DNA of 29,014 bases from Thraustochytrium sp. TN22 (taxonomy: Eukaryota; Sar; Bigyra; Thraustochytrida; Thraustochytriidae), in assembly GCA_013306675.1 (NCBI GenBank), contig JABLUY010000349.1, positions 1 through 29,014 of the forward strand. Direction: 5' to 3'. Position 1 is the first letter of the stretch; each line of letters opens with the position of its first letter. The notes below the pieces were generated by a model. That model did not search any database. It was not told the origin of the DNA and worked only from the letters and a program-made list of their open reading frames with translations. A program made the position numbers and the translations under genes. Positions 12,243 through 20,048 of the stretch are shown piece after piece.

Positions 12243-13424
12243 ATGAGCTGCGGCAGCGCAGCGGAGGGCGGTGATGGCGGCGGCGCATCGCTGCTCTGGG
12301 TGGCGGGCGCGGTGGTGTCCCTGAGCACCGGGCTCGTGGAGTGCCTGGGCAACATCCTGTACAAACGCGCGCACGTGGAGCAGCAGGCGCTGGAGGCGGG
12401 TCGCAAGTGGCCCGAGCTGGTGCCGGGGCTGATCTGCTCGCCGCTGTGGCTGGTGGGCTTCTTTTTGCAGAGCGTGCTGACGACGGTACTCAGCATCGTG
12501 GCCTTCGCGCTGGCGGCGCACACGCTCATCATGCCGCTGAGCGCGTCGTCCATCGTCTTCACGCAGATCCTTGGCCCGCGCCTGCTTGAAGGCGAAGAGG
12601 TGACTCGGCGCGCCCAGCTGGCCGGTCTCGTCATCGTGTGCGGCATCGCGCTCTGCATGGGCTTCGGGGTGCACGTGTCGCAGGACTATGGGATCGGCGA
12701 GATCTTCGAGCTGTGGCGGCGGCCCGCAAACGTCTGCGTGCAGGTGCTGACCCTGTGCGCGGCGGCTGCCGGCGTTGCGGTGGTGCGCACGCCGCGCCTG
12801 GTGCGTCGCATCCCTCCAGGGGCGCTCTTTAACCTTTACGCTTGCATCGGCGGCATCGCGAGCGGGCACTTCAACACGCTGCTGAAAATTGTCTCAGAGA
12901 TGATTGCCTCGCCACTCGCTGGTGCCACGGGCTCCTTCATGGCGCGCCACGAGGCTGGCCTGGCCATTGCCGGCGTCGTCTTCTACTGCTTCCTCGCGGG
13001 CGTCTTCGTTCTGAGCTGGATCAACCAGAGCATTTCGCGATTCGACATGACGCTATACATTCCGCTGTACACGGCGCAGTACATTGTCTGGGGCACCTTT
13101 ATTGGGGGCGTCTTCTTTCGTGAGTTTGACTGTATGTCGGCCCTCTCTTGGGTCATGTTCTGCCTCGGCATTGCGCTCATCGCCTGCGGCATGTACATGC
13201 TCACGCGAGCCTCCAAGGCGTCCACCGATAAGGTCGAGGCAGCCGGTACCGTGGGCGTGCCGGCCAAGCAGGAGGACCAGGAAACGATGCCCCAGGGGCG
13301 CGAACGTATCGGGGCTCGCGAGCCGCCATTTCACCCGTCCTCCAAGAGCAGCACCCCGTCTACCTCGGCGACGGCGGCGAAAGATCAAGGGCCATTGAAA
13401 CGAGATGATGGTCAACGCGTGTGA
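12243..13424 (+). CDS. NIPA-like multi-pass membrane transporter (DMT superfamily)
   Basis: The 393-residue protein has about nine hydrophobic segments (roughly 16-38, 62-82, 84-104, 127-143, 165-182, 195-212, 240-260, 270-294, 298-320) and a hydrophilic tail. The layout, an early lysine in NILYKRAH, a small-residue helix with LIMPLSASSIVFTQIL, and the final YIPLYTAQYIVWGTFIGGVFF plus REF followed by a last helix, resemble the NIPA magnesium-transporter branch of the drug/metabolite transporter superfamily. The substrate is inferred only; Mg2+ would be the family guess. The ATG at 12243 is the first in frame. The last 49 residues, Ser/Thr/Pro-rich and basic, lie inside the first copy of a 179-bp tandem duplication, and the stop codon (13422-13424) is within that copy. 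It is convergent with the lipoxygenase gene. Confidence 0.8.
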   Translation: MSCGSAAEGGDGGGASLLWVAGAVVSLSTGLVECLGNILYKRAHVEQQALEAGRKWPELVPGLICSPLWLVGFFLQSVLTTVLSIVAFALAAHTLIMPLSASSIVFTQILGPRLLEGEEVTRRAQLAGLVIVCGIALCMGFGVHVSQDYGIGEIFELWRRPANVCVQVLTLCAAAAGVAVVRTPRLVRRIPPGALFNLYACIGGIASGHFNTLLKIVSEMIASPLAGATGSFMARHEAGLAIAGVVFYCFLAGVFVLSWINQSISRFDMTLYIPLYTAQYIVWGTFIGGVFFREFDCMSALSWVMFCLGIALIACGMYMLTRASKASTDKVEAAGTVGVPAKQEDQETMPQGRERIGAREPPFHPSSKSSTPSTSATAAKDQGPLKRDDGQRV

Positions 13425-13637
13425 TGGATAAAAACAATGAGACTACACCTCCGAACCAGGGAACGATGCCCCAGGGGCGCGATCGTATCGGGCCTCGCGA
13501 GCCGCCATTTCACCCGTCCTCCCCGAGCAGCACCCCGTCTACCTCGGCGACGGCGGCGAAAGATCAAGGGCCATTGAAACGAGATGATGGTCAACGCGTG
13601 TGATGGATAAAAACGATAAGGCTACACCTCCGAACCA
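13276..13637. repeat. 179-bp tandem duplication across a convergent gene junction
   Basis: Two direct copies with an exact 179-base offset and no gaps (13276-13458 and 13455-13637) share all but roughly eight bases. Each copy carries the transporter's last 49 codons with its stop, an 18-bp spacer, and, on the minus strand, the last codons GSEV plus stop of the lipoxygenase. The transporter uses the stop in the left copy and the lipoxygenase the stop in the right copy. The tetranucleotide ACCA occurs at the left end, the joint and the right end. Because 179 is not a multiple of three, the copied transporter tail is open in another frame (13421-13603). Confidence 0.96.
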
Positions 13638-15481
13638 ACAAAGAAGCGAGAGGGAAGAAGCGCCTTGTAGGCGCGAAAGGGCTCGCCCTGTGCGAGGGCC
13701 TTGTCAGCGCGGCGGCTCTCGCGGCGCTCGATGGAGCGCTCCATGGCTTCGAGATCCGAGAGAAAGCGCTTAACTGCGGGCATGCTGGCGCCAAAGGTGT
13801 CCTCGAAGTAATCGCGGAAGGTGGTTTCGGGCAGCACCGAGCGGCAGAACTTGGCGGCCAGTGCGAGCTCCCCAACGACGGCCCTCGCGTCGCCCATGTA
13901 GTCGCGCGGGTTCACCTGGAGGCCCTTGGTCGTGGGCAGCGTGCGATACAGGCCGAGCGGCGCCGCGGCGGTGGAGAAGCCGTCCCAGGTCGCGTTGCCG
14001 TTCATGACGTGGTGCTTGACGCTCTGCAGGTAGATGGAGTTGCTGACGATGTCGACGACCTCGCGCAGCGACTGGAAGGAGGCCGGCACGCCCGGCACGA
14101 CCGGGCTTGCCGCAGCCGCGAAGTTCTGCAGCTCCTCGTCCTGGCGCACGTCGGCGTCACGGTTGCGCCCGCCAGAGCCGTAGTACTGACGCAGCAGGTT
14201 GTTGACAAAGCGGCGGATGATGCGGAAGGCGCGCGTCGCGTCGTCACGGTAATCGTTGGTGTGCATGCCCATCAGGCCGCGCGCGCGGAGGTCGTCGCGG
14301 GGCAGGGTCGCGAGCGAGTAGGTGCGGTTGGCAACCAGGTCGGTGAAGAGCCGCATGGCGCCCTCAGCGCTGAGGCCGGTGACGCGGTCAAAGGTGGTGC
14401 CATCGGTGAAGAGGTTGCGCACACCGAGCACCGCCAGCCCGTGCTGGATCGACAGCGGACCCTGGAGCAGCGCGAACACCGGGTGCTGCTCGCTCACGTG
14501 GCGCTCGAGCGCCACGCGGAGCGGCTCCATCATGAGGTGCTGCTCCGCGAAGTGGTGCTGCGAGTTCCAGTTCCGCTCCAAGCCGAGCACCGCGGCCTTG
14601 GCCAGGGCCCACTCGCCGGTCTGCGCGTCCAGCGGCGAGTACACGAGCCCGTTGCTCAGCTTGATTGCCAGCGGCATGAGCGCGCCCGCCCCGGTCGTGT
14701 ACAGGTACGTCTGCGAGCCCGCCAGATAAGGCTGCCCGGCAGCCACCGCAGCCTCCATGTCGCGCCCGTAGTTCGCCACGTCCATGAGATCCATGGCAAA
14801 GAGCGCCTTGGTCCTGATGAGCTTTCTCAGGGTCTTGCCGGACCCGGCAACGGCCGCCACCACCTCGTCGTCCACTTCAAAGAGTAGCTCGCTCGCAGTC
14901 CGCACGCGCCGCATGTTGAAGCCCGCGTACGTGTGGTGCACCTGGCCGAAGCCCTCGTCCGACTGCAGGCCGTCACGGAAGTAGGGCACGTTCATGGCAT
15001 CCGTGAAGTTCTCGTACATGGCGTCCAGGTCGCTCAACGTCTCGGAAGCGACGCCTACAGGAGCCGGCGCTAGGAGCTTGCCAAACTGCGTCAGCAGCGT
15101 GTCGTCCGGGATGGTGCGCTTCGCGAACTTGGTCGCCTCCATCACCACCACCGAGTATGCGTACGGGAAGCTCGGGTGCGGCAGCGTCGCGTTGTCCGGA
15201 TCGGTCATTGGCACGATTCCGTCCGGGATGCGGTAGCACGGCGGCTCCGGGTTCTGCACCTGCGCGCAGGCGTGGCCCGGGATATGGCTCACTACGCGCT
15301 TGTTGAACGCATAGAACGGGTCGGCCTGCCTCTCCTGCAGCTTCTCGCGCCGCAACACGGCGTTTGTGTTGGCCTCCTCGAAGGGCAGGGAGTAGGAGGC
15401 AGGTTGTGCCTGCGCCACGGCGAGCACCGTCATCAGTGCGAGCAGCACCAGGCAGGGCCGCATCGAGAAGGTTTGCTCCAT
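13622..15481 (-). CDS. Secreted lipoxygenase with C-terminal valine
   Basis: The 619-residue lipoxygenase should oxygenate polyunsaturated fatty acids. A signal peptide (about 1-26, core LVLLALMTVLAVAQA) is followed directly by catalytic-domain sequence; no PLAT/C2-like domain is seen. The metal-binding core is H310 and H315 (HxxxxH) in HHFAEQHLMMEPLRVAL, followed by the family pattern SEQHPVFALL. The third His and Asn are H490 and N494 (HxxxN) in SVKHHVMNGN. The last residue, V619, occupies the position of the C-terminal carboxylate ligand, which is Ile in plant and animal enzymes but Val in secreted fungal manganese lipoxygenases. The start chosen is the first ATG of the frame (15481); M7 (15463) would give an even shorter leader. 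The last codons and stop lie in the right copy of the 179-bp duplication. The family is firm; metal and regiospecificity are open. Confidence 0.9.
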   Translation of the reverse strand: MEQTFSMRPCLVLLALMTVLAVAQAQPASYSLPFEEANTNAVLRREKLQERQADPFYAFNKRVVSHIPGHACAQVQNPEPPCYRIPDGIVPMTDPDNATLPHPSFPYAYSVVVMEATKFAKRTIPDDTLLTQFGKLLAPAPVGVASETLSDLDAMYENFTDAMNVPYFRDGLQSDEGFGQVHHTYAGFNMRRVRTASELLFEVDDEVVAAVAGSGKTLRKLIRTKALFAMDLMDVANYGRDMEAAVAAGQPYLAGSQTYLYTTGAGALMPLAIKLSNGLVYSPLDAQTGEWALAKAAVLGLERNWNSQHHFAEQHLMMEPLRVALERHVSEQHPVFALLQGPLSIQHGLAVLGVRNLFTDGTTFDRVTGLSAEGAMRLFTDLVANRTYSLATLPRDDLRARGLMGMHTNDYRDDATRAFRIIRRFVNNLLRQYYGSGGRNRDADVRQDEELQNFAAAASPVVPGVPASFQSLREVVDIVSNSIYLQSVKHHVMNGNATWDGFSTAAAPLGLYRTLPTTKGLQVNPRDYMGDARAVVGELALAAKFCRSVLPETTFRDYFEDTFGASMPAVKRFLSDLEAMERSIERRESRRADKALAQGEPFRAYKALLPSRFFVGSEV

Positions 15482-17249
15482 GTCGCTGGACGCGGTTCCG
15501 CGCAAGGCTCGGCTTGCTTGTTTCAGGTTGTCTTGGTAGGTCTGGGGTCTCGATTCAGGTTTGCTTTGCTTGGCTTGCTTGAGCAGCTCAGCGAGCGCCT
15601 GTCACGTTGCGAGAGCCCCGGCTGGAGAACGCACTGGCCAGTAGAGGCCTCAAGCGTGGTGCTTGTGCTTGTTGAAGTGGGCCAATCACGCAGGTCGAGA
15701 CGCACGTTCAAGGCTTGCTTCCTTCCTCTGGTCTCGTTTTGGGTTGGTTTGTGACTTCGATTCGTGTTTGCTTGCTCCTGGATGCCTGCCGCTCCGCTCT
15801 GCGTGTCTGCCGCTCGGCCGCTTCGCCCGCCTGTTCCCGAGGAGCTCGCCGGCTGGAGAACTCGCTCCGAAACCTGTCGTGACGCGAGAACAAGCTTTGC
15901 CAGACGAGGGTCCCCAACTTGGTCTCCATCGTTCCTGTGAGCTCAGCGGAAGTAACAGCCAGTTCACGTGCCCGCTGGACTTGGACAGCGCTGACCAGCG
16001 CTGGAGCCAAGTGTTCATTCTCGAGGACTCGAGCCGCCGCGCCGAACCTCCGGCGGGGACCCCGCCCTGCTCGTCCTTGGGAGCGAGGGAGCCCGGACGC
16101 TCACGCGGCTGCGTTGGTGGCGCAGCCCGGCCCGGCCTGGCCAACTTCGGGACGCCCTCGCGCGCGCGCTCACCGGCAGGGAGTCGGAGTCGCGGCCCTC
16201 CTCGCGCTGCGCTCGCAGAAGGACGCCTCGGCAACCTGAAGCCTGAGAATGCGGTGTTGAGCGTCGTTGGCCGCGTGACGTCTGGCAGGACTGGCGGTGC
16301 GCGCCGCGCGCGGCGTACCCGGTCGTGACTGACCCCGTGCTGCGTACCCGGCGGGCTCGGCGCGCGAGCCAGCGGGATGTCATCAACGAGCTGGAAGCCG
16401 GATCTTCGCTGACCTACAGTTAGCGTGTCCGCGAGCATCGGCCCTCTCGGGAGCAGGGAGCGGGTTCGGGCTGCAGCCTGGCTGCTGCGCCGAAGACGAG
16501 CCGAGGTAAGAAACAGATCCCTTTCGTGACATCGTCAGCGTCGTGCGCGCGCAGCAGCAGCCCGAGCCAGGACCGAAACAACAACGCGAGCACTGGCAGA
16601 GGCAGAGGGGAGGCGGCCAAGGGTCCGGGACGCGCGCCTGTCACGGCGCGTCAAGGCAGGGCGGGACAACGCGAGGCGCGAGGCGCGAAGGCAAAAGGCA
16701 AGAAGGCAAGAAGCGCGAAGCGCGAGCGTAGGCTGCAACTTACCTGCGAGGACGCCCATGATGTCGTACTACGCCAAAGGGTCCTCGCAGGGTACGCCGT
16801 GGCTCATGATGTTTACCCTGACTCCGTTCATGCCAATGGTGCGCGCTCGTCATGTCACGAAGCGAGCAGCTCGGCAGGCGCAAAGCGTCGCCGAACTGAG
16901 CTAGCATTCTCATAAAGCGGAGCAGCTCATGGCTTCATGACTTGCGGTCGCTACCGTCAGAACGCGAAGGCACCTGCATTGTTTGAGACTGCGAAGTCGT
17001 TGTCGCCTAATCATTTTTGGCTCTACCACTGACTCGTGTCTTCGTTCTTGCTCAGCCTGCCCAGTCACAGGCTTGCTCATCCTCAAGCTGCATTGCGTTA
17101 CGTTGCGTTCAAGTCAAGTTGATTCTGTGTCTTCGGTCGCCTCTGCCTCTGGTGAGCAACCTAACGACCGGCGCCGTTAGGCTGCGCACGCAAGCAAGCA
17201 AGCAAGCAAGCAAATCAAGACGCGCGGCGCGGCTGGGCGCGGCGGCGCG
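15482..17249. other. Long divergent intergenic region, lipoxygenase and Myb/U-box genes
   Basis: This 1.77-kb head-to-head interval is less GC-rich than other upstream regions. Near the lipoxygenase it has repeated GCTTG and GCTTGCTTG words (15510-15580, 15710-15780), a CCAAT box (about 15682) and a CACGTG E-box (15965-15970). Open frames of 100-250 codons on both strands have no recognisable domain and are not called. A short open frame with an overlapping U1-like or splice-site-like motif (16737-16904) is discussed under findings. The perfect (GCAA)6 array is listed separately. Confidence 0.5.
17190..17213 (+). repeat. (GCAA)6 tetranucleotide repeat before the Myb/U-box start
   Basis: A perfect 24-base array ends 36 bp before the ATG at 17250, so it probably lies in the 5' UTR. 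The same perfect (GCAA)6 array occurs at 21082-21105. Confidence 0.93.
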
Positions 17250-18159: not shown

Positions 18160-20048
18160 TGGCGCACACCAGCGACGAGGAGGGCGCCACGGCGATTGGC
18201 ACCCCGGATCCAAGCGAGAGCGGAGCCGAGAGCAAGGCGCCGCCTGCGTCTGAAGACGTTGCCATGCACGCTGCCGAGGCTGAGACGAGCGAGGTGAAGC
18301 CGGCGTCCAACGACACGCAGGAGATGGAGGTGGAGGTGGTTTCTGTGGCGCCGGAGGCGACCGACAAGTGCGAGACGACCGCCGGCGAGGAAGGTCAGGA
18401 AGATGGCATCCAGCAGCAGCTCAAGGCCCAGACGGAGGTGGAGGAGTCGGAACAAGGTCAAGCGCAGGACTCCGGGGCGCCTCAGCCGCAGGAGGGCTCG
18501 GTGGCAAGTGATGCGGCAGTTTCAGAGACGACGATGCCGACGCAAAAGCCACAGAAGCAGCAGACGACGACCAAAAAGGAGGAGCTGGGCGACGAGGAGG
18601 AGATCGAGTACACGGAGGAGGAGCTGCGCGCGCTGAACTGGTCAGAGGCGCGCATCAAGGCCTTTTTGAACCGCAAGTCAAACCCGAACGCATACTATTA
18701 TCGCTTCAATAAGATGGGCGAGAAGCAGCGCACGGGCGAGTGGTCGCTAGAGAACCAGAAGCGCTTCATGGACCTCATTAAGGATGGCGTAGACTACCGC
18801 TGGGGCATCTTGAGCATCAAGATCCCCGGCCGCGTCGGGTACCAGTGCTCGAACTTTTACCGCAAGCTCGTGGCGCAGGGCAAGGTGATCGACCCAAACT
18901 ACCAGATTGACCCGGCTGGCAAGCTCAAGTTCATCCGGCCCAAGGGGCTCAAGCGCGGCGGTGGCACGAGTAGCGCCAAGGAGAGTAGCGCGGCGCCCCC
19001 AAAGCCGGCCCGTGGCAAGAACAAGAAGGCTGGTGCTGGTGCTGGTGCTGGTGCTGGTGCTGGTGCTGGTGCTGGTGCTGGTGCTGGTGCTGGTGCTGGT
19101 GCTGGTGCTGGTGCTGGTGCTGACGCTGCAGTTGCCGATGCTGGACCTGCGGCCAACGCCGACGCTGCCGCTGCTGCGACTAGCGCTGTCGCTCCTGTCG
19201 CTCCTGTTGCACCTGTTGCTAATGCACCTGCAAAGACAACCCTCACATCGGCCGCCGCCCCGGACAAGGCGGTCCAGGGTGCGGGTACGGAAATGGCCAC
19301 GGAGCCGGCCGCGACGGCGCCGACTGCGGGCTCCGAGCCCGAGAACACGCCGGCGAATACTACGAGTTCGGGCAACGGCGGCGGGCTCTCCGCAGGGGCT
19401 CGGCTAAGTGTGCAAAAGGCGAAGGAGGCGCTGGCCGCGAACGTGGCGAGGGACAAGCAGGAGGCGGCGGAGGCGAAGCGGTCGCGTAACTCGCGGTCAC
19501 GCAAGCGCGCAGCAAAGTCGCGCGCCAAGCGCAAGGGCAAGCACACGGACGAGATCTTCGCGGACGAGGTGGACTCGTCGGACGGTGAGATGGACTCGGG
19601 CACCTACGGGTACGGAGGCGCGGCCCACAAGCGGCGACGTAGATCAGATGCGGCCGGCGCGGCCGGCACTGCGGCGGCCGCAGCGGCCGCGGCGACGGCA
19701 AGCCGGCGCGCGCAGGATGAGGGCTGGCCGCAGCTGATTCCGGGCCTGCGGTGCCCGATGACCTTTGAGCTGGTGTACGACCCGGCCCTCTCGCCGTACG
19801 GCCACGTCATGGGCTACGACACGTGGTTGCGCGTCCTGGGCCGCGAGCCGCGAAACACGTGCCCATTCACCAAACAGCGGCTGACGCGCCGCATGCTCAT
19901 CAAGTTGACCGAGGACAACATTGACGAGCACCGACACAAGATCCAGCAGGTCGACACCAACCTCAACTTTGGCCCTTCTTCGTCTGCGTCCACCTCCTCG
20001 ACGACGGCGGAAGCAGCTGCGGTTGCTGCCGCATCCGATGCAAGCTAG
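17250..20048 (+). CDS. UBA-like / Myb-SANT / U-box protein, probable nuclear E3 ligase
   Basis: The 932-residue protein has an unusual set of parts. After an Ala-rich start and acidic run (45-62), residues about 96-137 (VVKATGLTRLEACIAVECCN, then GDEIEASTRIA) look like a UBA-type helix bundle. A charged coiled-coil-like stretch (about 150-200) and a 13-Gln tract (291-303) follow. Residues about 490-545 form a Myb/SANT-like repeat with aromatic anchors W498, W518 and F536/Y537 (GEWSLENQKRFMDLIKDG, PGRVGYQCSNFYRKLV). Then come 15 Ala-Gly dipeptides (594-623), basic clusters that could be nuclear localisation signals (about 745-770, and KRRRRS), and a C-terminal U-box from C835 (RCPMTFELVYDPALSPYGH, NTCPFTKQRLTRRMLIKL). 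It probably ubiquitinates chromatin-associated proteins; this is inference from domains. The start is the first ATG, after a (GCAA)6 leader. No introns are apparent. Confidence 0.85.
18120..18158 (+). repeat. (CAG)13 polyglutamine tract
   Basis: Thirteen pure CAG codons lie in frame within the Myb/U-box gene. Absence of CAA interruptions suggests a young or unstable tract. Confidence 0.95.
19029..19118 (+). repeat. (GCTGGT)15 hexanucleotide array encoding (Ala-Gly)15
   Basis: Ninety bases of perfect GCTGGT are in frame between the Myb and U-box parts. Every unit uses the same two codons, although the flanking alanine codons vary, which points to recent expansion by slippage. Confidence 0.95.

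Follow-up and report, generated by a model that had tools for sequence, protein, structure and literature searches.

In Thraustochytrium sp. TN22, the 3′ ends of two convergent genes, a predicted NIPA-like transporter and a predicted lipoxygenase, lie within a 179-bp segment that is present twice in tandem, with each gene ending in a different copy and both reading frames intact. This arrangement very probably reflects a single small tandem duplication, made by repair or slippage with ACCA microhomology, that spared both frames and was neutral. The duplication is real and mechanistically ordinary, and it belongs to a known kind of mutation. The window considered here is the whole stretch of DNA that was analysed, 29,014 bases with a G+C content of 67.5%, and corresponds to an entire contig (C276) of a 37.9-Mb assembly comprising 453 contigs.

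The two copies lie head to tail and in register, with 171 of 179 positions identical, eight substitutions and no indels (Table 1). Identity at an offset of 179 is 0.955, compared with a best value of 0.41 among 2000 mononucleotide shuffles of the surrounding 1.1 kb (12900-14000). For the copy structure the assembly sequence was accepted as given. The stop codons of the transporter (13422-13424, plus strand) and the lipoxygenase (13622-13624, minus strand) are 197 bp apart at present, and from the coordinates the corresponding distance inside each unit is 18 bp. An earlier note on this DNA had described tandem 179-bp copies with about eight differences and no indels, a stop spacing of 18 bp before the event and 197 bp after it, and two proteins with intact ends in different copies; the alignment, the coordinates and the confirmed frames agree with all of this. 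Both gene ends are likewise found in each copy as it had claimed, although its figure of 49 transporter codons must be amended to 48 whole codons and part of one. The GSEV-stop that it assigned to each copy is also present, with the qualification that in copy 1 the G is completed by the ACCA common to each boundary. Because this ACCA is shared, the end points of the unit are uncertain by 4 bp, and a microhomology of four bases may itself arise by chance.

Table 1. Features of the duplicated locus (positions in the window)
Feature	Position	Strand	Content or supporting match
Gene for a NIPA-like transporter (393 aa), terminating in copy 1	12243..13424	+	Pfam PF05653, E 5.6e-10
Copy 1 of 179-bp unit	13276..13454		3′ end of the transporter coding sequence with its stop (+), then the 18-bp spacer, then a relic SEV-stop of the lipoxygenase (-)
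Copy 2 of 179-bp unit	13455..13633		Relic of the transporter tail with its stop (+), then the 18-bp spacer, then the SEV-stop ending the lipoxygenase frame (-)
ACCA, 4-bp microhomology	13276..13279, 13455-13458, 13634-13637		Left edge of copy 1, start of copy 2, directly after copy 2
Lipoxygenase stop codon left as a relic within copy 1	13443..13445	-	
Transporter stop codon left as a relic within copy 2	13601..13603	+	
Lipoxygenase gene, ends in copy 2 with FVGSEV	13622..15505	-	Pfam PF00305, E 2.3e-13; PDB lipoxygenases

The transporter assignment is suggested by a match of residues 22-323 to the PF05653 (NIPA magnesium transporter) profile at 39.3 bits, against a curated cut-off of 26.2. 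The tail of the protein is weakly constrained, since 10 NIPA paralogs aligned with it have tails of little similarity. Five NIPA-like paralogs, 36-47% identical to the window transporter, are arrayed on one strand over about 11 kb (G000:C231:25268-36637), and two more are found on contig C421. The lipoxygenase matches the PF00305 profile at 50 bits (curated cut-off 23.6) and no other lipoxygenase match turned up in the assembly in a search that took no account of introns. Its longest open reading frame encodes 627 aa from a TTG (13622-15505), while the first ATG yields a protein of 619 aa (13622-15481); the GSEV end is encoded intact by copy 2 together with its flank. Long uninterrupted reading frames occur in the genome. 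A PfaA-type PUFA synthase at G000:C124:26703-41142 has a 3044-residue frame and scores 2539.7 bits including frame neighbours (cut-off 1010.1), and beside it lies a second, divergent frame of 2083 residues whose matches are weaker; a PfaA-type PUFA synthase gene pair is associated with thraustochytrids. No match to the light-harvesting family was found in the assembly. Taken with the long frames and the G+C content of the window, these features give the genome a thraustochytrid-like appearance.

The ancestral locus would have carried the convergent transporter-lipoxygenase pair in single copy with the stops 18 bp apart. A small tandem duplication probably then arose once, through repair of staggered or nearby nicks or breaks or through slippage, with the ACCA direct repeat that bounds the unit acting as microhomology at the ends of the duplication. 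The segment copied would be the 179 bp spanning the stop codons of both genes, and the sole new junction, joining the end of copy 1 to the start of copy 2, would fall between the two stops, with the old order kept from the left flank into copy 1 and from copy 2 into the right flank. The transporter would thus come to use the stop of copy 1 and the lipoxygenase that of copy 2, with neither frame altered, because a tandem duplication spanning both stops puts its only new junction between the genes. What was left on the inside, a lipoxygenase end within copy 1 and a transporter tail within copy 2, would have become spacer and would now be drifting. A tandem duplication covering the two stop codons always preserves the ends, and the intact gene ends therefore carry no information on selection. 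The duplication is probably neutral. The transporter-like tail of copy 2 is open for 59 codons from an ATG overlapping the transporter TGA (13424-13603), probably by chance in such G+C-rich DNA. Frame-shift reading into this tail was set aside, 179 not being a multiple of 3 and no slippery site being apparent by eye. Folding of 50 bases at the breakpoints with RNA parameters gave no usable hairpin.

The differences between the copies bear both on the age of the duplication and on whether it could be an artefact. Eight differences in 179 positions correspond to a Jukes-Cantor distance of 0.046, and the duplication therefore need not be recent; the recent date implied by the earlier note is without support for copies that are 4.6% diverged. 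Five differences fall in the transporter tail (13282, 13304, 13314, 13344 and 13345), and all five change the amino acid, an outcome with a chance of 0.24 if the sequence is unconstrained. The remaining three (13436, 13439 and 13442) lie inside the 18-bp spacer. The density of differences is consequently uneven, with 3 in 18 positions of the spacer versus 5 in 161 elsewhere (Fisher p 0.035, uncorrected for several looks), and the copies share an identical run of 90 bp (p 0.028, likewise uncorrected for several looks). This unevenness and the long identical run leave room for gene conversion, or for constraint on copy 2. Polarising the eight differences with NIPA paralogs was tried and rejected, the 10 aligned paralog tails being too unlike the unit; among the listed NIPA matches some reach into the tail (L004 to residue 373, L009 to 383 and L011 to 382), with low similarity. 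Searches for relatives gave 10 pattern matches by lipoxygenase in genome_contigs and three by transporter in viral_contigs, none of them confirmed. A difference of 4.5% is also what alleles may show, and two haplotypes or a mis-resolved repeat might have been written head to tail in the assembly sequence on which the analysis is based. We consider such an artefact very unlikely. The junction has no run of N and a clean 4-bp microhomology, eight differences rule out that one sequence was simply counted twice, and the change of amino acid at every coding difference (five of five, at the chance given above) is unlike typical alleles. Moreover, the locus has one matching place across the 37.9-Mb assembly, and no second locus was found.

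Tandem arrays in a comparison sample indicate that this kind of event is present in the genome. The sample was taken from another contig (200 kb, with 133.5 kb of it readable) and was scanned for two full adjacent copies with a period of 40-1000 and at least 90% identity. The scan returned five rows in the sample and two in the window, compared with none in one plain shuffle of each. The five sample rows were a 5-bp microsatellite, a GGC-rich low-complexity run of 48 bp, and complex units of 41, 88 and 147 bp. With the microsatellite and the GGC-rich run left out, four complex-unit arrays were counted in the 133.5 kb, with units of 88 bp (2 copies), 57 bp (1.9 copies), 41 bp (2.6 copies) and 147 bp (6.7 copies), the copy numbers of the last three being those given by TRF. 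Such arrays therefore occur about once per 33 kb in this sample, and one of the four lies over a gene 3′ end. Only the 88- and 57-bp arrays have about two copies, and the 179-bp case is the longest two-copy one sampled. The proposed explanation of the locus does not depend on this count. The 57-bp duplication (92%, G000:C22:196884-196992) was reported by TRF and lies at a convergent pair, where each of its copies contains the stop codon belonging to the minus-strand gene. The other scan row in the window is a hexamer microsatellite, in which GCTGGT repeats perfectly over 94 bp (19029-19122) in a U-box gene.

The effect of the duplication on the distance between the two genes raises the question of whether the wider spacer was itself favored. 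Spacer lengths were sampled over 162.5 kb among 57 genes called as codon-usage-scored ORFs with introns ignored, and the 15 convergent spacers, including the window locus at 197 bp, span 51-1131 bp with a median of 215 bp. The putative earlier spacing of 18 bp is smaller than all 14 of the others (minimum 51 bp), and the present spacing is near the median. These values would fit a duplication kept by selection for moving crowded 3′ ends apart and giving each gene its own termination zone, and they are the one hint of the relief of convergent transcription that the earlier note had suggested; such a benefit from wider spacing is possible. That selection acted in this way is nonetheless very unlikely in our judgment, given that a rank of 1 in 15 has a chance of about 0.07 and that the gene calls behind the comparison depend on ORF scoring with introns ignored. 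In addition, past the 57 ORF stops no clear five-base word was seen as a poly(A) signal and there was almost no [AG]ATAAA, by inspection with no formal test; because no poly(A) signal was recognised, the termination zones could not be placed.

The unit could also be viewed as a proto-intron on the lipoxygenase strand, since the protein would be the same with one unit spliced out, as in intron gain by tandem duplication, a model set out in PMC4974935. In both copies AGGT lies at the last lipoxygenase codon boundary, between GAG and GTG, and the two occurrences (13447-13450 and 13626-13629) are one unit, or 179 bp, apart. However, AGGT is only four bases long, any duplicated AGGT has such spacing, and a second AGGT pair is present in the unit. 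A GTRAG-type donor is found in neither copy on either strand, and for this reason the proto-intron is given little weight; we regard it as extremely improbable. A combined adaptive reading, in which an 18-bp junction was brought to normal size by copying both stops and the spacer may in addition provide a removable 179-nt proto-intron on the lipoxygenase strand with the protein unchanged, is highly doubtful.

The locus provides a clear example of a tandem duplication that lengthens a convergent intergenic region with neither protein paying for it. It also cautions that gene ends left intact by such a duplication are a matter of geometry and not a sign of selection. Should selection on the spacing be demonstrated, compact eukaryote genomes could be used to investigate how convergent gene pairs avoid transcriptional interference. 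A literature search found no description of such a case among the papers listed, and absence in print is claimed no further than that search.

Comparison with known systems places both the protein end and the mutation in context. In lipoxygenases a metal ligand is the C-terminal carboxylate, usually of Ile and in the fungal manganese enzymes of Val (PMC13059375), and ligand spacing is treated in PMC5437038. The earlier note had taken the C-terminal residue of the window lipoxygenase to be such a ligand, and this fits the family. Aligned with manganese lipoxygenase (PDB 5fno), the window protein has His-x4-His in register and HHVMN opposite HHVLN, residues that are candidates for the three His and the Asn which, together with the C-terminal carboxylate, bind the metal in lipoxygenases. 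Eight residues remain past the aligned part in both chains, and the likeness to the manganese enzymes (5fno, 5fx8) extends accordingly to the distance to the C-terminus and the C-terminal Val. Overall similarity to these enzymes is nevertheless low, and ALOX15B chains score slightly better (93 versus 89 bits).

Intron gain through AGGT-bearing tandem duplication (PMC4974935 and the Rogers model cited there) resembles the window case in having AGGT at unit spacing and the same protein whether spliced or not. The window case is unlike that model in being located at a stop codon and lacking a GTRAG donor, and it is known here from DNA alone. Closer parallels are provided by the products of repair and slippage. 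Insertions in rice arise most often as tandem duplications, which show an enrichment at 50-200 bp and whose share is down to 5% of events by 200 bp (PMC7971508); 179 bp is therefore near the upper limit of this class. Breaks give rise to small tandem duplications, among which the products of TMEJ are larger, with more microhomology (PMC8355091). The window duplication shares with the rice insertions and with the CST/Pol alpha and TMEJ products a head-to-tail copy with no indels, short microhomology and membership in the 50-200 bp class. It differs from them in an age sufficient for eight differences to have accumulated, in its putative polarity, and in its position at the upper end of the size range.
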